From: Sulfitobacter sp. DFL-14
GTDB taxonomy: Bacteria; Pseudomonadota; Alphaproteobacteria; Rhodobacterales; Rhodobacteraceae
DNA length: 64,000 nucleotides
Direction: 5' to 3'
NCBI RefSeq assembly: GCF_003335585.1
Contig: NZ_QBFD01000029.1
Location: 126,625-190,624 of the forward strand
The first letter of the stretch is position 1. The number at the start of each line of letters is the position of its first letter. Of this stretch, positions 7,789 through 28,145 are shown piece after piece. The translations under genes were made by a program, and so were the position numbers. The notes under the pieces were generated by a model. The model made no database searches. It had not been told where the DNA came from and saw only the letters and a program-made list of their open reading frames with translations.

Positions 7789-9081
7789 TCAGTCCGCGAA
7801 GGGATCGGTGACCAGAATCGTGTCTTCCCGCTCCGGCGAAGTGGAGAGCAGTGCCACGGGACATTGGATCAACTCTTCGACGCGGCGCACGTATTTGATC
7901 GCCTCGGCGGGCAGATCGGCCCAGCTGCGCGCGCCTTCGGTCGATTGCGACCAGCCCGGCATTTCCTCGTAGACCGGGGTGCAGCGCGCCTGCTGGTCTG
8001 CGGCAGTGGGCAGATATTCCAGCGTCTTGCCGTCCAGCTCATAGCCCACGCAGATCTTGAGGGTTTCAAAACCGTCCAGCACATCCAGCTTGGTGAAGGC
8101 GATGCCGTTCACACCGGATGTGGCGCAGGTCTGGCGCACCAGCACCGCGTCGAACCAGCCGCAGCGGCGCTTGCGCCCGGTCACCGTGCCAAATTCATGC
8201 CCCCGCTCGCCCAGCCGCTGACCATCCGCGTCGTGCAATTCGGCGGGGAAAGGCCCCTCGCCCACGCGGGTGGTATAGGCCTTCACGATGCCGAGGACAA
8301 AGTCGATGGAGCCGGGCCCGATGCCGGTGCCTGTTGCCGCCTGACCCGCGATCACATTCGACGAGGTGACAAAGGGATAGGTGCCAAAGTCGATATCCAG
8401 CAGCGCGCCCTGTGCGCCCTCGAACAGGATCCGCTTGCCCGCCTTGCGCTGCTCGTTCAGCACCTTCCAGACCGGTGCCGCATATTCCAGAACCGCCGGG
8501 GCGATCTCTTTCAGCGCCGCGATCAGCGCGTCGCGGTCCACCGGCTCCAGCCCCAGACCCCGGCGCAGCGCGTCGTGATGCACCAGCGCGCGGTCCACCC
8601 GCAGCTCCAGCGTCGCCTCATCCGCCAGATCGGCCACACGCACCGCGCGGCGGCCCACCTTGTCCTCATAGGCCGGGCCGATGCCGCGCCCTGTCGTGCC
8701 GATCTTGGCCACCGAATTCTGCGCCTCGCGGGCGCGGTCCAACTCGCCGTGGATCGGCAGGATCAGCGATGTGTTTTCGGCAATCATCAGGGTCTCGGGG
8801 GTGATGGTGACACCCTGGCTGCGCAGCCCTTCAATCTCTTTCACCAGATGCCAGGGGTCCAGCACCACGCCATTGCCGATCACGCTCAGCTTGCCGCCGC
8901 GCACGATGCCCGAGGGCAGCAGGCTCAGCTTGAAGACCTCACCGTCGATCACCAGCGTATGGCCCGCGTTATGCCCGCCCTGGAAACGCGCGATCACATC
9001 GGCACGCTCGGACAGCCAGTCGACAATCTTGCCTTTTCCCTCGTCGCCCCACTGGGCTCCGACAACAACGACATTGGCCAT
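7789..9081 (-). CDS. purA: Adenylosuccinate synthetase
   Basis: A 430-residue enzyme, the standard PurA length. It joins IMP and aspartate with GTP, the first committed step from IMP to AMP. The start [20 protein letters not shown] contains the GDEGKGK P-loop and catalytic Asp13. It is followed by the GGHNAGHT catalytic His42 motif, [15 protein letters not shown], the FEGAQG loop and a C-terminal TKLDVLDG guanine-binding stretch. The ATG at 9081 was chosen because the conserved N-terminus begins there; the same frame stays open further upstream. The downstream partner is the DUF2842 gene. Confidence 0.97.
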
Positions 9082-19456: not shown

Positions 19457-20815
19457 ATGGGCAAAGCCAAATATCTGCGCCTCGCCGACGCGCTCACCGG
19501 CGCCATCGAGAACGGCAAACTTGCGCCGGGCACCAGATTGCCCACGCACCGCGCCTTTGCCGAACAATTCGGCGTCGCCCTTGCCACCGCCACGCGCACC
19601 TATGGCGAACTTGAACGCCGGGGCATGGTCCTGGGCGAGGCGGGGCGCGGCACCTTCGTGCGCGATCCTGGCCTGCCGCTCACTCTGGGGGTCCGGCAGA
19701 CCGACAGCGAAGGGCTGGTTGATCTTGTCTTCAACATGCCCGGCGGTGCCGGGGACGCGGATATGCTGCGCTCCGGGCTGCGGCGGCTCGCGGCATCGGG
19801 CGATCTTGAGGCGATGCTGCGCTATCAGCCCCATGGCGGCCGCCCCCACGAACGCCGGATCATCGCTGAACATCTCTCGGCCAGCCTCGGCCCGGTCGAT
19901 CCGGGGGTGCTGCTGGTCACATCGGGCGCGCAGCACGGGCTGGCGATCACCGCACTTGGGGTGCTGCGGCGCGGGGATGCGGTGGCCACCGACATGCTGA
20001 CCTATCCCGGCTTCAAATCCGTCGCCGCCCTGCAGGGGCTCGACCTGGTGGGCATCGAGGGGATGAATGGCGTGATGAACCCCGATGCGCTGGACCGGCA
20101 GTGCCGCACCCGCAAGCTGCGCGCGGTCTATCTGATCCCGACCGTGCAGAACCCGCTGGGCGCGGTCATGGACCTGCCCACCCGCCTGCGCCTGATCGAG
20201 GTGGCGCGAAAGCATGATCTGTTGATCCTGGAGGACGCGGCATATGCTTTTCTCGAACCGGACCCGCCGCCGGGCTTTCTTGCCCTTGCCCCCGATCTGA
20301 CCATCCATCTGGGCGGTTTCTCCAAAAGCCTCGCGACGGGGCTGCGGCTTGGCTATGTGATTGCCCCGGCGCGGCGTCTCGACGGGCTGCTTGATGCGAT
20401 CCGGGCAACCACATGGAACGCGCCCGCGCTGATTTCCGGCCTGGTCACCGGCTGGATCATGGATGGCACGCTTGCAGCCTCCGAGCAGGCCCGCCGCGCG
20501 GACGGTGCCGAACGTCAGCGCATCTGCCGCGCCGTATTTGGCGAAAGGCCGGTGCTGGCGCACCGCAATGCGGGGTTCGCCTGGCTGCCCCTGGACAGGG
20601 GGCTGCGCGCCGGCCCCATCGTCACCCATCTGAAACAAAAGGGGCTTTCCGTCTCCGGTGCGGAGCCTTTTGCCACCACCGCCGCGATTCCGCAGGCGCT
20701 GCGGCTGGCCTTTGGCGGCGTCCGGACAGAGGAGCTGACCGCTTCCCTGCAAACGGTACAGGACGCCATCGAGAGCCACACGCCAGTGAAACCCACCCCG
20801 CGACCGGGCCTGTGA
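19457..20815 (+). CDS. MocR/PdxR-type GntR regulator with aminotransferase domain
   Basis: A 452-residue fusion. The N-terminal winged helix (about 1-75) reads YLRLADALTGAIENGKLAPG, LPTHRAFAEQFGV and GRGTFVRD, the GntR pattern. The rest is a fold-type I PLP domain with LVTSGAQHGLAI, YLIPTVQNPLGAVM, EDAAYAFLE and the PLP lysine in GGFSKSLATGLRLGY (near residue 280). MocR proteins use PLP or amino compounds as effectors. It is divergent from the MFS gene and lies just before the polyamine-type cluster, so it could regulate either; no direct evidence. Confidence 0.92.
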   Translation: MGKAKYLRLADALTGAIENGKLAPGTRLPTHRAFAEQFGVALATATRTYGELERRGMVLGEAGRGTFVRDPGLPLTLGVRQTDSEGLVDLVFNMPGGAGDADMLRSGLRRLAASGDLEAMLRYQPHGGRPHERRIIAEHLSASLGPVDPGVLLVTSGAQHGLAITALGVLRRGDAVATDMLTYPGFKSVAALQGLDLVGIEGMNGVMNPDALDRQCRTRKLRAVYLIPTVQNPLGAVMDLPTRLRLIEVARKHDLLILEDAAYAFLEPDPPPGFLALAPDLTIHLGGFSKSLATGLRLGYVIAPARRLDGLLDAIRATTWNAPALISGLVTGWIMDGTLAASEQARRADGAERQRICRAVFGERPVLAHRNAGFAWLPLDRGLRAGPIVTHLKQKGLSVSGAEPFATTAAIPQALRLAFGGVRTEELTASLQTVQDAIESHTPVKPTPRPGL

Positions 20816-20865
20816 CGCAGCTTTGCCACCGCCCGCACCGAGCGCCTGCCCTGTCCTTCAGCGAT

Positions 20866-20938
20866 TGACCCTAGGTCAGCCCGCAAATTATGCGGCCCTG
20901 TCAAACACGGCGTTGCAATCTGAGGGAAATTATTCCCT
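20866..20938. promoter_or_regulatory. Three short palindromes upstream of the ABC transporter operon
   Basis: Within 75 bases lie TGACC-CTA-GGTCA (20866-20878), CCGCA-AATTA-TGCGG (20881-20895) and AGGGAA-ATTA-TTCCCT (20923-20938). All have perfect arms. This is the only non-coding space before the operon and is a reasonable place for operators; the binding proteins are unknown. Confidence 0.4.
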
Positions 20939-20962
20939 TATGTCACATCGAAACGGTAAGAA

Positions 20963-21748
20963 GTGACACTCGTGGACCCTGAGACCCCCGTCATCCAGAT
21001 CAACGACCTGCACAAGGCCTATGGCGCGCTCGAAGTGCTCAAAGGCGTCAGCCTGAATGCCCCCAAGGGCAATGTGATTTCGCTGATCGGATCATCCGGA
21101 TCGGGCAAATCGACGCTGCTGCGGTGCTGCAACCTGCTGGAAGACAGCCAGCAGGGCGACATCCTGTTCAAGGGCGAACCCGTCACCTGGAAGGGCAGCC
21201 ACCATGGCCGCAGGCCCAGCGACCCCAAACAGGTGCTGCGCATCCGCACCAACCTCAGCATGGTGTTCCAGCAGTTCAACCTGTGGTCCCATATGACCAT
21301 CCTGCAAAACGTGATGGAGGCGCCGCTGACCGTGCTGGGGCGCGACCGGGCAGAGGTTGAACAGGCCGCGCGCGGCTATCTCGACAAGGTCGGGATCGGC
21401 GACAAATGCGATGTCTACCCGGCCCAGCTTTCCGGCGGCCAGCAGCAGCGCGCCGCGATTGCACGGGGGCTCTGCATGGAGCCCGAGGCGCTGCTCTTTG
21501 ACGAGCCGACCAGCGCGCTTGACCCGGAGCTGGAGCAGGAGGTGGTCAGGGTCATCAAGGACCTGGCCACCGAGGGGCGCACGATGCTGATCGTCACCCA
21601 TGACATGAAACTGGCCGCTGATGTGTCCGACCACGTCATTTTCCTGCATCAGGGCCTGATCGAGGAACAGGGGCCGCCCGACCGGCTGTTCGGCGCGCCC
21701 ACATCAGAACGCCTGCGCGGGTTCCTTTCGGCGACCCACGCAACGTAG
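20963..21748 (+). CDS. ABC transporter ATP-binding protein (polar amino acid/polyamine type, HisP-like)
   Basis: A 261-residue ATPase with Walker A GSSGSGKST (about 43-51), Q-loop in MVFQQFNLWSHMT (about 100), signature LSGGQQQR (about 156-163), Walker B LLFDEPTSALDPE (about 176-188) and switch His in VTHDMKLA. The family drives uptake of polar amino acids, opines and similar bases. The start is a GTG (20963; a second GTG lies at 20972). It is the first gene of the transport and gamma-glutamylation cluster. Confidence 0.93.
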   Translation: MTLVDPETPVIQINDLHKAYGALEVLKGVSLNAPKGNVISLIGSSGSGKSTLLRCCNLLEDSQQGDILFKGEPVTWKGSHHGRRPSDPKQVLRIRTNLSMVFQQFNLWSHMTILQNVMEAPLTVLGRDRAEVEQAARGYLDKVGIGDKCDVYPAQLSGGQQQRAAIARGLCMEPEALLFDEPTSALDPELEQEVVRVIKDLATEGRTMLIVTHDMKLAADVSDHVIFLHQGLIEEQGPPDRLFGAPTSERLRGFLSATHAT

Positions 21749-21782
21749 ACCAGAACGAAAACCAGAACGGGAGTAACACGTT

Positions 21783-22517
21783 ATGAAAAAGATTATCCTT
21801 TCCGCCACGGCGCTGGCGATGATGGCCGGAGCGGCCTTTGCCGATTCGCATTCCAGCACCGTCCGCATGGGGACCGAGGGCGCCTACCCTCCCTACAACT
21901 TCCTCAACGATGCGGGTGAAGTCGACGGCTTCGAGCGTGAAGTGGGCGACGAGCTCTGCGCGCGGGCCGAGCTGACCTGCGAATGGGTCACCAATGAATG
22001 GGACAGCATCATCCCCAACCTGACCTCCGGCAACTACGACACCATCATCGCCGGCATGTCGATCACCGACGAACGTGACGAGGTCATCGACTTCACGCAG
22101 AACTACTTCCCGCCCGCCGCTTCCGCCTATGTGGCGAAATCGGCTGATGCGGATCTGACCGCCGGTGTCATCGCGGCGCAGACCAGCACCATCCAGGCCG
22201 GCTATGTTGCTGAATCCGGTGCCACCCTGCTGGAATTCGCCACCTATGACGAAACCGTCGCCGCCGTGATGTCGGGCGAAGCCGATGCGGTTTTCGCCGA
22301 CAAGGACGCGCTGGCCCCCACGGTCGAGGAATCGGGCGGTGAGCTGAGCTTTGTTGGCGATGACGTGCCGCTGGGCGGCGGTATCGGTGTCGGCGTCCGC
22401 GAAAGCGACACCGAGCTGAAAGGAAAGCTCGACGCGGCAATCCAGTCCATGAAGGACGACGGCAGCCTGAACGAGCTGATCGTCAAATGGTTCGGCGCAG
22501 ACGCCAAAACCTTCTGA
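21783..22517 (+). CDS. Periplasmic amino acid/polyamine-type substrate-binding protein
   Basis: A 244-residue family 3 solute-binding protein. The signal peptide runs to about AAFA-DS (residue 20), followed by TVRMGTEGAYPPYNFLNDAGEVDGFE, the typical opening. It then has GNYDTIIAGMSITDERDEVIDFT (about 82-104) and an acidic SGEADAVFADKDAL region. It delivers its ligand to the permeases encoded downstream. A strong terminator follows directly, which would separate it from the permease genes unless read through. Confidence 0.93.
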   Translation: MKKIILSATALAMMAGAAFADSHSSTVRMGTEGAYPPYNFLNDAGEVDGFEREVGDELCARAELTCEWVTNEWDSIIPNLTSGNYDTIIAGMSITDERDEVIDFTQNYFPPAASAYVAKSADADLTAGVIAAQTSTIQAGYVAESGATLLEFATYDETVAAVMSGEADAVFADKDALAPTVEESGGELSFVGDDVPLGGGIGVGVRESDTELKGKLDAAIQSMKDDGSLNELIVKWFGADAKTF

Positions 22518-22523
22518 TACAAC

Positions 22524-22551
22524 AAAGGCCGGCCCGATGCGGCCGGCCTTT
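22524..22551 (+). terminator. Hairpin terminator after the binding-protein gene
   Basis: AAAGGCCGGCC (22524-22534) pairs perfectly with GGCCGGCCTTT (22541-22551) over a six-base loop. The arm sequence gives three A on one side and three T on the other, so it could act on both strands and also end the antisense microgene at 22565. In transporter operons such hairpins commonly keep binding-protein expression above that of the permeases. Confidence 0.75.
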
Positions 22552-22564
22552 CCGCCCCGAAGCC

Positions 22565-22798
22565 CTAGCCCAGCAGCGGGTCTTCAAATGCCACAGGAAC
22601 GAGGAAATCAGTGCCCGCGTCATCCAGACTGAAAGACTGCGGACCGGTCGCGCCAAGCAATGGGTCTTCGAAGCCGTTTTCGACCACCAGACCCAGCACG
22701 CGGGGCATCGTCAGACCCAGCAGCGGATCCTCGAACATGCCTGATCCGTTGTCGATGACGGTGGCGGCGGAGCTTTTGAAAATGAACTGGTCTGACAT
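22565..22798 (-). CDS. FEDPLLG-repeat microprotein, antisense within the transporter cluster
   Basis: This 77-residue gene has an AAAGGA ribosome site six bases before its ATG. The protein has no signal peptide and holds the motif FEDPLLG three times, at residues 22-28, 43-49 and 71-77, the last at the very C-terminus. The starts are 21 and 28 residues apart, both multiples of seven. The first two copies are preceded by VIDNGSGM and LVVENG. The three DNA copies differ at several third positions but every change is synonymous, strong evidence that the protein sequence is under selection. I know no family with this motif. A repeated C-terminal core recalls ribosomally made peptide precursors, but no modification enzyme is adjacent. 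Confidence 0.75.
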   Translation of the reverse strand: MSDQFIFKSSAATVIDNGSGMFEDPLLGLTMPRVLGLVVENGFEDPLLGATGPQSFSLDDAGTDFLVPVAFEDPLLG

Positions 22799-22819
22799 GT
22801 GTTTTCCTTTGGCTGAATG

Positions 22820-22838
22820 CGGATCTTTGAATGATCCG
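22820..22838. promoter_or_regulatory. Palindrome CGGATC-N7-GATCCG between the microgene and the permease
   Basis: Perfect six-base arms with a seven-base spacer in the 100-base divergent region. It is the best operator candidate for either gene; the binding protein is unknown. Confidence 0.35.
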
Positions 22839-22900
22839 AGCATTCCAGACCTGTCTCTTGCTGAACAGTCGGGTATTCCTGACTCCGTCGGAGGGCCCTG

Positions 22901-23785
22901 CTGATCCTTCCCGATTGTACAGTTCCCGGAACGCTGGACGGCCTGATCTGGCTGACCTGCTACCTGACCACGGGCAAGCATGTGGCCTTTTACGGCGCAT
23001 TCGGCACAGTGCTGCTGCTGCTGGCGATCACGGCCCCCATGGCGCTGGCCTTCGGCTTTGGCGGGGCGATGGCGGCGCGGGCGCAGTTTGCGCCGCTGCG
23101 CTGGTTCGGCAAGGGCTATATCGCCATCGTGCGCGGCGTGCCGGACATCGCCTTTTTCCTGTTTTTCGTCATCGCGCTGGATCAGGCCGTCGAATACATG
23201 CGCCACCTGTGGAAATGCCCCGACTGGGATCAGCCGATCCGCCAGGGCAGCGATTTCCTGGTCTGCCAGGCGGCCAAGATGCCGCTGGGCAACTCCCCCC
23301 AATGGGTGCATGAAACCTATGGTTTCGCCCTTGCGGTGCTGACCTTTGCCATCGTCTTTGGCGCCTTCGCGGCCAATGTGCTGTTCGGTGCCATGCGCGC
23401 CGTGCCCCGTGCGCAGCTGGAGACCGCCGAAAGCTATGGCATGTCCCCGCGCCAGACCTTCTGGCGCATCCTGGTGCCGCAGATGTGGGTCTATGCGCTG
23501 CCCGGCCTGTCGAACCTGTGGATGGTATTGATCAAATCCACCCCCCTGCTGTTCCTGCTGGGGGTCGAGGATATCGTCTATTGGGCGCGGGAACTGGGCG
23601 CGGCCAAGACCCCGCGCTTTACCGCTTTCCCGCATGGCGACTGGCGCGTGTGGTACTTCCTCGCCCTGCTGGTCTTCTACCTCGCCTTCACGCGGGTCTC
23701 CGAAATCGTGCTGGGTCGGCTGATGACCCGGCTGACACGCGGGCAGGCCACCATGGGCGGCGAAGCGCAGAGGAAGAACGCATGA
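22901..23785 (+). CDS. Amino acid/polyamine ABC transporter permease 1, non-canonical start
   Basis: An inner-membrane permease of the HisQM type with five to six helices and the EAA loop MRAVPRAQLETAESYGMSPR (about 168-187), which docks on the ATPase. The first standard in-frame start is a GTG at 22982, but coding sequence clearly continues upstream (LPDCTVPGTLDGLIWLTCYL). A GGAGGG ribosome site at 22890-22895 points to a start near 22901, where the codon is CTG. No ATG, GTG or TTG lies in frame between the stop at 22880 and 22982. Either a CTG start is used or a base is in error. The gene ends in an ATGA overlap with a 30-codon reading frame. Confidence 0.85.
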   Translation: MILPDCTVPGTLDGLIWLTCYLTTGKHVAFYGAFGTVLLLLAITAPMALAFGFGGAMAARAQFAPLRWFGKGYIAIVRGVPDIAFFLFFVIALDQAVEYMRHLWKCPDWDQPIRQGSDFLVCQAAKMPLGNSPQWVHETYGFALAVLTFAIVFGAFAANVLFGAMRAVPRAQLETAESYGMSPRQTFWRILVPQMWVYALPGLSNLWMVLIKSTPLLFLLGVEDIVYWARELGAAKTPRFTAFPHGDWRVWYFLALLVFYLAFTRVSEIVLGRLMTRLTRGQATMGGEAQRKNA

Positions 23786-23874
23786 CCTGTTCTTCACATA
23801 CAAATGGGGCCGGACGCGCATGCGCCGCATACGCTCACCCGGCCGCGTTGCTCCACAAGGAGCAACGGACATGA
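23782..23874 (+). CDS. Coupling micro-ORF between the two permease genes (30 residues)
   Basis: This ATG is part of the ATGA at the end of permease 1, and its TGA is part of the ATGA at the start of permease 2. The 30 residues (starting MTCSSHTNG, ending LLHKEQRT) have no membrane segment and no recognisable motif. The perfect overlap at both ends suggests a translational relay rather than a functional protein. Permease 2 also has its own AAGGAG ribosome site inside this frame. Confidence 0.5.
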   Translation: MTCSSHTNGAGRACAAYAHPAALLHKEQRT

Positions 23875-24677
23875 CCTGCCTCCAGACCATCCAGGATTAC
23901 GGCCTGCGGTCGCTGGGCATCGGCGAACGCCTGCTGCCGCGTGACAATTTCACGCTCTGCGACCAGTTCACCCTGATCGGCTCCGGCATGCTGTGGAACG
24001 TCTACTTCGGCACCCTGGCGCTGATCACCGGCTTCTTCCTGGCCACCGCCCTTGGCCTGGGCAAGGCCAGCCCCAACCCGCTGCTGCGCAAACCGTCGGA
24101 ATGGTTCATCTTCATCTTCCGGGGCTCGCCGCTCTTTATCCAGTTCTTCTTTGGCTACTTCCTGTTCCTGACCCTGAAACAGCAGGCCGCCTTCTTTGAT
24201 CCCTTCTCTGCCGCCTGGCTGGGGGCGCTGGTTGTGCTTTTCTGCAACACCGCCGCCTATACCGGCGAAATCTTTTACGGCGCGCTGCTGTCGGTGCCCA
24301 AGGGCGACATCGAGGCGGCGGATGCCTATGGCCTCTCGGGCTGGAAACGCTTTCGCCGGGTGATCTGGCCCACCATGCTGCGGCTGGCCTGGCCCGCCTA
24401 TACGAACGAGGCGATTTTCCTGTTTCACGCCACAACACTGGTATTTTTCAGTGGGTTCCCGGCGGTTCAGCAAAAAGGCGACGCGCTTTATTACGCCAGC
24501 TATTTCGCGGACAAGACCTTCAACCCCTTTGTCCCCTATCCGATCCTGGCGGGGTATTTCATCCTGCTGACATTGGTCGTGATCACACTTTTCGGGCTGA
24601 TCAACAAACGGCTGAACCGGCACCTGCCGCAGGAACGCCGCCAAAAATTACGCTTGCGCCCTAATCTGATCCGGTAG
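23871..24677 (+). CDS. Amino acid/polyamine ABC transporter permease 2
   Basis: A 268-residue HisQM-type permease: MLWNVYFGTLALITGFFLA as the first helix, FIFIFRGSPLFIQFFFGYF in the second, and the EAA loop LLSVPKGDIEAADAYGLSGW (about 142-161). The start at 23871 follows AAGGAG with good spacing. With permease 1 it should form the heterodimeric channel for the cluster. The gene is followed by an 89-base spacer holding a palindrome. Confidence 0.92.
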   Translation: MTCLQTIQDYGLRSLGIGERLLPRDNFTLCDQFTLIGSGMLWNVYFGTLALITGFFLATALGLGKASPNPLLRKPSEWFIFIFRGSPLFIQFFFGYFLFLTLKQQAAFFDPFSAAWLGALVVLFCNTAAYTGEIFYGALLSVPKGDIEAADAYGLSGWKRFRRVIWPTMLRLAWPAYTNEAIFLFHATTLVFFSGFPAVQQKGDALYYASYFADKTFNPFVPYPILAGYFILLTLVVITLFGLINKRLNRHLPQERRQKLRLRPNLIR

Positions 24678-24678
24678 T

Positions 24679-24692
24679 ATCAAACTTTTGAT
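24679..24692. promoter_or_regulatory. Palindrome ATCAAA-CT-TTTGAT upstream of the first ligase gene
   Basis: Perfect six-base arms with a two-base spacer, two bases after the permease stop and 75 bases before the glutamine-synthetase-like gene. AT-rich in a GC-rich setting, so it is a fair operator candidate. Confidence 0.4.
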
Positions 24693-24766
24693 CAAATTAT
24701 CCGGCGGTGGTTGACGGCTGACAGGCTGAGGCCTGAACGCTTGTCCCACAGCCTATCAGGTGTGCA

Positions 24767-26101
24767 ATGAAAAACTGGCTCCGCAAGAACCCTCATGTCC
24801 GGACGATCCGTGTGGCCGCCGCTGACCTTAACGGTCAGCCGCGCGGCAAACGTGTCCCGACCCGTTTCGCGGACAAGGTGACAACCGAAGGCACGCGCTT
24901 TCCCTTCTCCGTGCTGAATCTCGACATCTGGGGCGAGGACATTGACGACAGCCCGCTGGTCTTTGACAGCGGCGACCGCGACGGCGTGCTGAAACCGACC
25001 GAGCGCGGCTTCCTGCCGATGCCCTGGCTTGAGACCCCCTCTGCCCTGCTGCCGATCTGGATGTTCCACGAGGATGGCCGCCCCTACGAGGGCGATCCGC
25101 GCCATGCGCTGCGCGCGGTGCTTGACCGGTTCAAGGCCCGGGGCCTGACGCCGGTCTGCGCGGTGGAGCTGGAATTCTTCCTGATCGACGATTCAGGCCG
25201 CAACCTGCAGATCCCGATCTCGCCCCGCTCCGGCAAGCGGCGCAAGGCGGCTGAAACCCTGTCGATCCGCGCCCTGGACCAGTTCGACAGTTTCTTCACC
25301 GATCTCTACGACGCCTGCGAGGAAATGGACATTCCCGCCGATACCGCGATTTCGGAAGCCGGGCTTGGCCAGTTCGAGATCAACATGATGCATTGCGACG
25401 ATGCCCTGCGCGCCGCCGACGATGCCTGGCTGTTCAAGATGCTGGTGAAAGGGCTGGCGCGGCGGCACGGCTTTGCCGCCTCTTTCATGGCCAAACCCTA
25501 TGAGGATTATCCCGGTTCCGGCCTGCACACGCATTTCTCGGTCCTGGATCAATCCGGCAAGAACGTCTTTGACAATGGCGGGCCCGAAGGCACCGACCTG
25601 ATGAAGAGCGCGGTTGCGGGCTGCATTTCCGCCATGCCCGGCTCCGCGCTGGTCTTTGCCCCGCATCTGAACAGCTATGACCGGCTGGTGCCGGGCAACC
25701 ATGCGCCCACCGGGGTCAGCTGGGCCTATGAGAACCGCACCTCCTCCATCCGCATCCCCTCGGGCAGCAGCTCGGCGCGGCGGATCGAGCACCGCGTCTC
25801 GGGCGGCGACGTGAACCCCTATCTGATGCTGGCCGCCGTTCTGGGCGCCGCCATCACCGGCATCGAGGATGGTGCCACGCCGCCGCCCCCGGTCACCGGC
25901 AACGCCTATGACGCCGATCTGCCGCAGATCCCCGACAACTGGCAGGCGGCCATCGACGCCTTCGAGAGCGACCCCTATGTCGCGCGCATCTTCGCGCCCG
26001 AAATGATACGAAATCTTGTCCTGACAAAGCGGCAGGAACTGCATTACATGCAGGAACTTACCCCTGAAGAACGGGTCATCATCTACCTCGACACTGTATA
26101 G
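24767..26101 (+). CDS. Glutamine synthetase family ligase 1 (gamma-glutamylpolyamine synthetase-like)
   Basis: A 444-residue enzyme of the glutamine synthetase superfamily. The metal and ATP site residues sit in VCAVELEFFLIDDSG (near 126), ISEAGLGQFEINMMH (near 205), PGSGLHTHFSVLDQSG (near 250), NSYDRLVPGNHAPTGVSWAYENRTSSIR (near 305, cited in part) and RIEHRVSGGDVNPYLMLAA (near 345). It lacks the adenylylation loop of true GlnA and is of PuuA size; such enzymes attach glutamate to putrescine or other amines. The binding-protein genes upstream fit amine uptake. The substrate is inferred. Confidence 0.9.
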   Translation: MKNWLRKNPHVRTIRVAAADLNGQPRGKRVPTRFADKVTTEGTRFPFSVLNLDIWGEDIDDSPLVFDSGDRDGVLKPTERGFLPMPWLETPSALLPIWMFHEDGRPYEGDPRHALRAVLDRFKARGLTPVCAVELEFFLIDDSGRNLQIPISPRSGKRRKAAETLSIRALDQFDSFFTDLYDACEEMDIPADTAISEAGLGQFEINMMHCDDALRAADDAWLFKMLVKGLARRHGFAASFMAKPYEDYPGSGLHTHFSVLDQSGKNVFDNGGPEGTDLMKSAVAGCISAMPGSALVFAPHLNSYDRLVPGNHAPTGVSWAYENRTSSIRIPSGSSSARRIEHRVSGGDVNPYLMLAAVLGAAITGIEDGATPPPPVTGNAYDADLPQIPDNWQAAIDAFESDPYVARIFAPEMIRNLVLTKRQELHYMQELTPEERVIIYLDTV

Positions 26102-26109
26102 GAGAGGCT

Positions 26110-26787
26110 ATGAAAATCGGCATCCTCATCACCGGCCATCCGCCCGAGGAAATGTCTGACGGCGGGCATTACGACGCCTATTTTGCGCGGCTGCTGGGCG
26201 ACCGCGATTTCACCTATCAGGCCTGGTCCGTCGTTGACGGCGAGATGCCGCAGGGCGTGCATGACGCCGAAGGCTGGCTGATCACCGGGTCGCGCCATGG
26301 CGCCTATGAGCCCCACCCCTGGATTCCCCCGCTGGAGCAGTTCATCCGCGACAGCTACGCCGCGCATGTGCCGATGATCGGCGTCTGTTTCGGCCACCAG
26401 GTCATCGCCCAGGCGATGGGCGGCAAGGTCGAGAAATTCGCAGGCGGCTGGTCCGTGGGCCGCGTGGTCTATCCGATCGAAGGGCAGGACTATGCCATCA
26501 ACGCCTGGCATCAGGATCAGGTGGTGGAAAAACCCGCGATGGCCGAGGTGATCGGCGCGACGGATTTCTGCGCCAATGCGGCCCTGCTCTATGATGACCG
26601 CATCTGGACCATTCAGCCCCATCCCGAATACGAATCCGATTTCATCGACGGGCTGATCCGCCATCGCGGCAAAGGTGTGGTTCCTGACGCGCAGCTCGAC
26701 AGCGCAACCGCCGTTCTGACGCAACCGCTCGACAATCATGCGATAGCTGCCAAGATGGCTGCATTCTTCAAGAAAGAGAGGGCCTGA
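26110..26787 (+). CDS. Class I glutamine amidotransferase-like hydrolase
   Basis: A 225-residue GMP-synthase-like glutaminase domain. The nucleophile elbow is GVCFGHQVIAQAMGG with Cys near 95, and the catalytic His-Glu pair is in QPHPEYESDF near 178. It lies between two glutamine-synthetase-like genes, eight bases after the first and overlapping the second by one base (TGATG). In the E. coli Puu pathway a hydrolase (PuuD) releases glutamate from a gamma-glutamyl product; this protein could do that job, though its motif is of the GuaA rather than the PuuD type. Confidence 0.88.
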   Translation: MKIGILITGHPPEEMSDGGHYDAYFARLLGDRDFTYQAWSVVDGEMPQGVHDAEGWLITGSRHGAYEPHPWIPPLEQFIRDSYAAHVPMIGVCFGHQVIAQAMGGKVEKFAGGWSVGRVVYPIEGQDYAINAWHQDQVVEKPAMAEVIGATDFCANAALLYDDRIWTIQPHPEYESDFIDGLIRHRGKGVVPDAQLDSATAVLTQPLDNHAIAAKMAAFFKKERA

Positions 26788-28145
26788 TGGCCGACAGGAT
26801 GACAGATCTGCCCGAAGCGGCACAACTTTATCTCGAAGGCAGGCGGCTGGACGAGGTCGAGTGCATCATCTCCGACCTGCCCGGCATCGCGCGCGGCAAG
26901 GCCGTGCCTGCGTCCAAATTCGCGCGCCAGGAATATTTCCACCTGCCCGACAGCATCTTTTTCCAGACCATCACCGGCGACTGGGGCGAAGCGGCCGGGG
27001 ATGACGGGTTCATCGAAAAGGACATGATCCTGCGGCCCGACATGAGCACCGCAACCGCCGCCCCCTGGACAGCGGACTGGACCCTGCAGGTGGTCCATGA
27101 CGCCTATGACCGCAACAACAAGCCGGTCCCCTATTCGCCGCGCAACGTGCTGAAACGAGTGGTGGACCTTTACCGCGCGCAGGGCTGGGAACCGGTGGTG
27201 GCCCCCGAGATGGAATTCTTCCTGGTCGCGCGCAACCTTGACCCCGCGCATGAGATCCAGCCGATGATGGGCCGCTCCGGCCGCCCCGCCGCCGCGCGGC
27301 AGGCCTATTCGATGACCGCCGTCGACGAATTCGGCCCGGTGATCGACGACATCTACGATTTCGCGGAAGCCCAGGGTTTCGAGATCGACGGCATCACCCA
27401 GGAGGGCGGCGCGGGCCAACTGGAGATCAACCTGATCCACGGCGACCCGGTCAAGCTGGCCGACGAGGTCTTCTACTTCAAGCGCCTGATCCGCGAGGCG
27501 GCACTGCGCCACGACTGCTATGCCACCTTCATGGCCAAGCCGATCGCGAATGAACCCGGCAGCGCCATGCACATCCATCATTCCGTGCTCGACAGCAGCA
27601 CCGGCAAGAACATCTTTTCCGACGCGCAGGAGGGCGAGACGGACGCCTTCATGTATTTCATCGCCGGGCTGCAGAACCACATGCCCGACGCGCTGGCGGT
27701 GATTGCGCCCTACGTCAACAGCTACCGGCGCTACGTCAAGGATCACGCCGCCCCGATCAACCTCGAATGGGGCCGCGACAACCGCACAACCGGCATCCGG
27801 GTCCCGCTGTCGAAACCGAACTCGCGCCGGGTCGAAAACCGGATTCCGGGCATGGATTGCAACCCCTACCTCGGCATCGCCGCCAGCCTCGCCTGCGGCT
27901 ATCTGGGGCTGATGGAACAGAAGAAACCGAAAGCCGAATTCATGGGCGACGCTTATGACGGTGACGGTGACATCCCGCAAGTGCTGGGCAATGCGCTGGA
28001 CCTGTTCGAAGAGGCCACCAAGCTGCACGAGGTCCTCGGCCCCGATTTCGCGCGGGTCTATGCCATCGTGAAACGCGCGGAATACGACGAATTCCTGCAG
28101 GTCATCTCGCCATGGGAGCGCGAGCACCTTCTGATGAACGTGTAA
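26787..28145 (+). CDS. Glutamine synthetase family ligase 2
   Basis: A 452-residue paralogue of the ligase at 24767. It shows VVAPEMEFFLVAR (near 138), ITQEGGAGQLEINLIHG (near 208), EPGSAMHIHHSVLDSSTG (near 258), WGRDNRTTGIRVP (near 330) and RRVENRIPGMDCNPYLGIAA (near 350). An N-terminal LEGRRLDEVECIISDLPGIARGK is typical of the gamma-glutamylamine ligases. Having two ligases suggests two substrates, or a heteromeric enzyme. It is translationally coupled to the amidotransferase gene. Confidence 0.9.
   Translation: MADRMTDLPEAAQLYLEGRRLDEVECIISDLPGIARGKAVPASKFARQEYFHLPDSIFFQTITGDWGEAAGDDGFIEKDMILRPDMSTATAAPWTADWTLQVVHDAYDRNNKPVPYSPRNVLKRVVDLYRAQGWEPVVAPEMEFFLVARNLDPAHEIQPMMGRSGRPAAARQAYSMTAVDEFGPVIDDIYDFAEAQGFEIDGITQEGGAGQLEINLIHGDPVKLADEVFYFKRLIREAALRHDCYATFMAKPIANEPGSAMHIHHSVLDSSTGKNIFSDAQEGETDAFMYFIAGLQNHMPDALAVIAPYVNSYRRYVKDHAAPINLEWGRDNRTTGIRVPLSKPNSRRVENRIPGMDCNPYLGIAASLACGYLGLMEQKKPKAEFMGDAYDGDGDIPQVLGNALDLFEEATKLHEVLGPDFARVYAIVKRAEYDEFLQVISPWEREHLLMNV

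Follow-up and report, generated by a model that had tools for sequence, protein, structure and literature searches.

An unannotated family of small acidic microproteins in the Rhodobacteraceae, with repeated motifs that may act as multivalent binding peptides

Graspetides and cyanobactins are modified peptides (RiPPs) made from precursors with repeated cores, and disordered regulatory microproteins that carry short linear motifs form another general class of small proteins. The gene described here lies in a 64,000-nucleotide stretch of Sulfitobacter sp. DFL-14 DNA (the window), and its product and relatives share with the graspetide and cyanobactin precursors their small size, lack of a predicted fold and repeated acidic blocks, but differ from them in showing no nearby modifying enzyme, in lacking a leader and in having modules that interchange. 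With the disordered regulatory microproteins they have in common size, predicted disorder and a repeated short motif, whereas the tested members match nothing firm in databases and show an unusual coherence in the spelling of the motif within each protein (its "dialect"). We know of no other example of such coherence. A further likeness is to Hcp (TssD, PF05638), the tube protein of the type VI secretion system (T6SS), whose N-terminal strand and loop, Y-(L/M)-K-I-x-D-I-x-G-E-S-Q, is echoed over about 13 residues by the DIxGES module of one type of these microproteins; this likeness is limited to that short stretch, and the module is absent from the window's own protein.

The microprotein gene occupies positions 22565..22798 (-), comprising 77 codons and a TAG stop, and the open reading frame for the 77-residue product (P0001) was confirmed at these coordinates. 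The frame remains open further upstream to 23890, which would give 441 residues in the list of open reading frames; the start at 22798 is favored because the ribosome-binding site and the starts of the homologs agree on it. That site, AAAGGAAAACAC directly before the ATG, was read from the sequence in the region 22799..22813 (-) and bears out the good ribosome site described in an earlier note on this DNA. The gene lies antisense within an amino-acid ABC transporter cluster, as that note had also recognized, between the gene for the binding protein at 21783..22517 (+), which is outside the microprotein unit, and the divergent permease gene at 22982..23785 (+). The note had further placed it between a terminator and a divergent palindrome. 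A terminator-like hairpin was indeed found by a hairpin scan at 22527..22544 (-), where the microprotein gene and the gene for the binding protein converge, which by itself is weak evidence because shuffled sequences already yield a mean of 0.4 hairpins against the single one in this region; the palindrome that relatives share is at 22868-22883 (see below) and not the GGATC hairpin near 22820-22840. A scan of the region recovered no sigma-70-like promoter for the gene. The wider neighborhood (19457-28145) encodes a MocR/EhuR-like regulator, the amino-acid ABC transporter, two glutamine-synthetase-like proteins and a class-I amidotransferase, an assemblage reminiscent of polyamine use.

P0001 contains three copies of the motif FEDPLLG, at residues 22-28 (22715..22735, -), 43-49 (22652..22672, -) and 71-77 (22568..22588, -), the last being the exact C-terminus. 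As the earlier note had it, the spacings between their first residues (21 and 28) are both multiples of seven, and the differences between the three 21-nt copies, which share 15, 17 and 17 of 21 bases in pairwise comparison, are all silent. When P0001 was shuffled 20,000 times, the longest word present thrice was of four residues (in five shuffles), and no shuffle contained a thrice-repeated word of seven. Between the first two copies, at residues 30-36 (22691..22711, -), is a TMPRVLG module that also occurs in type 2 relatives (see below) and may resemble a conserved stretch of the T6SS sheath protein TssC.

Sequence searches yielded 4 proteins in a database search, 25 with a profile and 57 with a wider profile (E up to 10 for both profiles), amounting to about 60 relatives. 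The organism name is absent from most of their records, and all those named are from roseobacter-type genera: Antarctobacter, Mameliella, Roseovarius, Pseudooceanicola, Sagittula, Sedimentitalea, Salipiger, Thalassococcus, Primorskyibacter, Arenibacterium, Flavimaricola, Pukyongiella, Seohaeicola and Meridianimarinicoccus, along with one "Rhodobacteraceae bacterium". We take these genera to be Rhodobacteraceae in the broad sense. Motifs are conserved and frames intact in these other genera, so that the absence of motif-bearing homologs or the broken frames that might have betrayed a spurious gene are not what is seen. Members were detected in 8 of 394 genomes from the family (G000, G064, G164, G186, G308, G313, G388 and G424), and a single-sequence search of 35 further genomes from the window's genus gave nothing better than an E-value of 0.09; the gene is thus common to several genera yet patchy in distribution. 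The set of 60 proteins used for the counts below leaves out two near-copies of the window protein (P0002 and P0004), a doubtful relative (P0025) and two proteins outside the family (P0028 and P0029); it retains several weak profile matches (E up to 10) since they carry modules, and the end of one protein, P0018, looks truncated or frameshifted. None of Pfam, NCBIfam, PHROGs, PADLOC or PDB assigned the tested members firmly to a family (10, 2, 8 and 1 members in separate searches), the one PHROGs match having an E-value of 0.25, which agrees with the earlier note, whose author knew of no family with this motif. Plasmid and phage records contained no clear relative (E of 2 or weaker, one match being an annotated Hcp at E 4), six motif strings were absent from publications in the PMC open subset, and no recognizable publication on the family was among the matches listed in a literature search. 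Taken together, this is a real and conserved microprotein family that is unannotated.

The 60 proteins are 64-105 residues long, with a median net charge of -9 and cysteine in only one of them. They are assembled from recurring motifs that interchange among them, namely FEDPxxG, DIxGES, WGTNG, MHVDPVIPG and MPRVLG; by loose patterns FEDPxxG is present in 53, DIxGES in 52, HxDP in 33, WGxxG in 30, MPRVLG in 16 and DNGSG, which might be read as an actin-like string, in 10. Order and copy number vary between members and the modules are distributed along the whole chain, with up to four exact FEDPxxG copies per protein. A C-terminal glycine is found in 53 of the 60, and the last three residues are LFG, LLG or SFG in 47. 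The two variable positions of FEDPxxG are filled by LL, LF or SF, and 24 of the 29 proteins that carry two or more exact copies use a single dialect throughout, whereas 20,000 shuffles averaged 6.1 such proteins and never exceeded 16. After similar proteins were thinned, 17 of 22 remained uniform compared with 5.2 in shuffles. Only exact copies enter these counts, looser ones such as FEEPLLG in P0003 and FDDPLLG in P0009 being excluded; the five proteins with mixed dialects are P0019, P0021, P0024, P0032 and P0048.

At the DNA level the copies look different. In six genes, with codon usage taken from eight window genes, 51 of 119 synonymous codon pairs differ between copies, against 56.3 expected from random choice. 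The copies are therefore alike as protein while their codons look random, which argues against recent DNA copying and points to selection by a partner as what keeps the repeats alike. Comparisons between genes concur: dN/dS is 0.09 (L027-L028), 0.07 (L026-L027), 0.09 (L026-L028), 0.28 (window-L027), 0.26 (L038-L041) and 0.31 (L038-L039), these being rough ratios because dS is near saturation. A usable dS was obtained in six of eight pairs, the exceptions being window-L026 and L043-L040. The microprotein sequence is under purifying selection, and the proposal that selection acts on the protein motif is supported by these ratios, by the random-looking codons and by the retention of the motifs in relatives.

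Two types of microprotein can be distinguished by sequence and location. Type 1, which includes the window protein, begins with MSDxFxFKKP and consists mostly of FEDPxxG repeats. In Mameliella (two instances), Roseovarius and Arenibacterium it likewise runs antisense within the amino-acid ABC cluster seen in the window (at the L026 locus the binding-protein gene was not called by the gene finder), and in G388 it sits elsewhere, adjoining a gene read as uroporphyrinogen decarboxylase. Type 2 begins with MDxFVF and contains DIxGES, often with WGTNG, MHVDPVIPG, MPRVLG and FEDPxxG. In four of five loci it is 0.2-2.9 kb from the gene for ribosomal protein S1, with cytidylate kinase on its other side in two; the fifth locus is that of G308. 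In G424 the microprotein gene adjoins a gene for a 500-residue protein with two hemopexin repeats (L041:8061-9563, +), in front of which is a palindrome-like site, GTGTGGAATTCCGGAC, at 8012; the C-terminal part of this protein, which has no family match, looks by eye like a cysteine peptidase. As a partner this protein was set aside, being above the cut-off only in G424 among 11 genomes searched, with a weak match in G388.

Most of the family genes examined also share upstream features. A 16-bp palindromic element, GTCGGGTATTCCTGAC, unstranded and at 22868..22883, begins 85 bases before the start codon of the window gene and is the one exact site in the window. The pattern GTCnGGnWWnCCnGAC is found 85-111 bases before the start in 8 of 11 family genes, exactly in four and with one or two mismatches in four, and the genes that bear it occupy unrelated chromosomal places; L026, L027 and L037 have no upstream palindrome. 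In a Gibbs search of width 16, the best of 12 starts had a log-likelihood of 126, whereas the best of 4 starts in each of four shuffled sets scored 96-104. The exact pattern had 50 strand-matches in six carrier genomes, and reading it backwards yielded 3. At least one of the sites (G000 C46) is inside a gene model. By eye, a ribosome site can be read in front of nearly all of the 11 genes and a hairpin behind most. The element is also seen near other genes, named here from our reading of Pfam matches and sequences: it adjoins pyrF in three genomes (L150, L158, L160), with a dinB-like gene on its other side in two, precedes hemA-like genes in two genomes (L152, L161), ctaD twice in one (L162) and a gyrase-B-type gene read as parE (L147), and lies near the end of a gene for an RTX-repeat protein (L163). 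No matching site appears among known quorum-sensing, LexA and CtrA sites in the passages of PMC6473078 and PMC11655674 that were consulted. The occurrence of the palindrome at corresponding intergenic places in several genera suggests an uncharacterized regulon or DNA element of the Rhodobacteraceae.

An AlphaFold2 model of P0001, built on an alignment of 31 sequences (P0001 and 30 relatives), has a pLDDT of 55.9, a pTM of 0.13 and no secondary structure. The absence of a predicted stable fold fits a disordered protein and, together with a repeated motif conserved at the protein level, corresponds to what would be expected of a disordered, multivalent motif microprotein. The most likely reading, and about an even bet (a probability near 0.5), is that the gene stands alone and encodes an acidic microprotein, intrinsically disordered, which acts as a multivalent binding peptide. 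The repeated motif would dock into one pocket of a partner in the same cell, the specificity of the pocket would set the dialect, and the repeats would raise avidity; a uniform dialect per protein would follow most simply if each species had a single partner with a single binding pocket. Readings of the repeated motif as akin to the SSB tail or to beta-clamp binding were also considered and are speculative.

Several alternatives were weighed against a multivalent binding peptide. That the frame arose by chance, or is a functionless DNA repeat of recent origin, could be argued from its antisense position, the long open frame upstream and the patchy occurrence, and is barely credible given homologs both at the shared locus and elsewhere, a dN lower than dS, repeat differences that are silent, and an upstream palindrome and ribosome site common to relatives. 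The identical short blocks repeated in a small protein without predicted fold, the acidic residues in every block and the C-terminal glycine in 53 of 60 members are what one might see in the precursor of a RiPP with repeated cores, whose modifying enzyme would be encoded elsewhere in the genome. This is quite improbable in view of the neighborhoods and the architecture. Of 100 gene models within 5 kb, 87 were used and 13 doubtful ones left out; for these 87 neighbors from 10 loci, the 25 Pfam families listed out of 57 include transport proteins, glutamine synthetase, S1, kinase and other general families and no RiPP enzyme, and no CxxxCxxC radical-SAM motif occurs in the gene models called in 11 stretches, a T6SS locus among them. 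Within this scope, the observation in the earlier note that no modifying enzyme adjoins the gene extends to relatives. Furthermore, the genes are at unrelated places, 59 of the 60 proteins lack cysteine, and in place of a conserved leader and a variable core the modules interchange along the whole chain, so that the resemblance to repeated-core precursors drawn in that note finds no support in the neighborhood or in a leader/core division. The same C-terminal glycine, with the LFG, LLG or SFG ending of 47 members, could alternatively mark a tag for degradation, localization or recruitment, in which a terminal L/F-Gly is read by a protease adaptor, a PDZ-like domain or a similar receptor. This is distinctly unlikely, as the same motif is also internal, up to three more times, so that not every copy can depend on a free C-terminus.

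A further alternative is that the microproteins mimic parts of the T6SS, namely peptides of its tube (Hcp) and of its sheath (TssC), and serve as decoys that block assembly of the cell's own or an attacker's T6SS. A type 2 profile run against the 394 genomes (E up to 0.1) gave 22 listed rows, made up of 7 microproteins, 7 Hcp N-termini and 8 unrelated proteins; since Hcp is present in only 104 of these genomes (in three of them only within ORFs above 1,400 residues), 7 Hcp among 15 non-microprotein rows are far beyond chance (as computed with 14 rows). With blastp-short, the 60 proteins matched, besides microproteins, only Hcp and TssC among 1,823 ORFs from 26 loci and the window (E up to 2e-3): 21 queries hit two Hcp proteins, with E down to 1.7e-7 and identity at 14 of 14 residues, and 4 queries hit six TssC proteins, with E of 1.2e-4 to 1e-3. 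As 17 of the 27 ORF sources were from around T6SS clusters, such matches were favored, and 40 shuffled sets gave a best E of 2e-5, with some match below 2e-3 in six; on this basis the likeness to Hcp is firm, whereas that to TssC is no more than suggestive. Profile comparisons, each done singly, gave E 1.8e-5 for Hcp and 0.26 for TssC with a broad type 2 set, and 1.4e-4 and 3.2e-5, respectively, with a subset of ten. The DIxGES module has near-identical counterparts in the Hcp that the window's genome encodes and in that of a Pseudosulfitobacter plasmid, the Hcp of other carriers being less like it; no match to PF05638, and none to any Pfam family up to E 10, was returned for each of 10 members. 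The MPRV(L/I)G module of 16 of the 60 members resembles the stretch L-A-M-P-R-V-L-G-R of the TssC/VipB sheath, with weak statistical support, and no other TssC stretch clearly matched the microproteins.

Hcp is also commoner in carriers of the microprotein, in 6 of 8 against 98 of the 386 others (Fisher p 0.005, a raw value that ignores genome size and kinship). Against a decoy, the family is not confined to genomes with a T6SS, as two of the eight carriers, G308 and G424, have neither Hcp (PF05638, E up to 0.001) nor TssC (PF05943, E up to 0.1), and no T6SS gene was seen to have an upstream palindrome as strong as those of the microproteins, the one strong match in a T6SS stretch (L042 12425) being inside a gene model. 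An enzyme of G159 that reads by eye like a sulfoacetaldehyde acetyltransferase (Xsc-like; L095:529-2307, +) carries LKVPDIAGESQR, so that an Hcp-like string can arise elsewhere, and the TssC likeness is weak. At the loci examined the microprotein genes are outside T6SS clusters: the Hcp of the window genome is on another contig, and in G164 the two genes share a contig at a distance of about 114 kb. Overall, we regard the decoy as unlikely. A stretch containing YYIKIPGTTGETQRL near the T6SS of the window genome lies in a 149-residue ORF of another kind and was judged a chance match. As a separate observation, four carriers have a second VipB/TssC-like domain in open frames of 1278-1497 residues, 12-13 kb from the T6SS sheath gene (G064:C10:89506, G186:C9:120037, G164:C26:60928 and G313:C1:1642036).

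If the multivalent binding peptide is the correct reading, the resemblance of DIxGES to the first strand and loop of Hcp makes the T6SS tube and sheath machinery, or a factor that handles it, our best guess for the partner system, and the microprotein might then be a titrating decoy or an assembly regulator of the T6SS. At the level of sequence this connection is a lead and not a result. A bolder and, in our estimate, unlikely version would have "motif-deck" microproteins that string copies of an Hcp strand and a TssC segment together with a docking motif of one dialect, and thereby inhibit or adjust type VI injection, also in cells that lack a T6SS, where they would act on the parts of an attacker.

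The same spelling within a protein, as seen in most members, together with different spellings between proteins and drifting codons, amounts to a clean sign of concerted evolution at the protein level. The dialect pattern predicts a co-evolving partner, which could be fished for with the peptide. Should the likeness to Hcp prove functional, these microproteins would represent a new kind of regulator or defense peptide for contractile injection systems.
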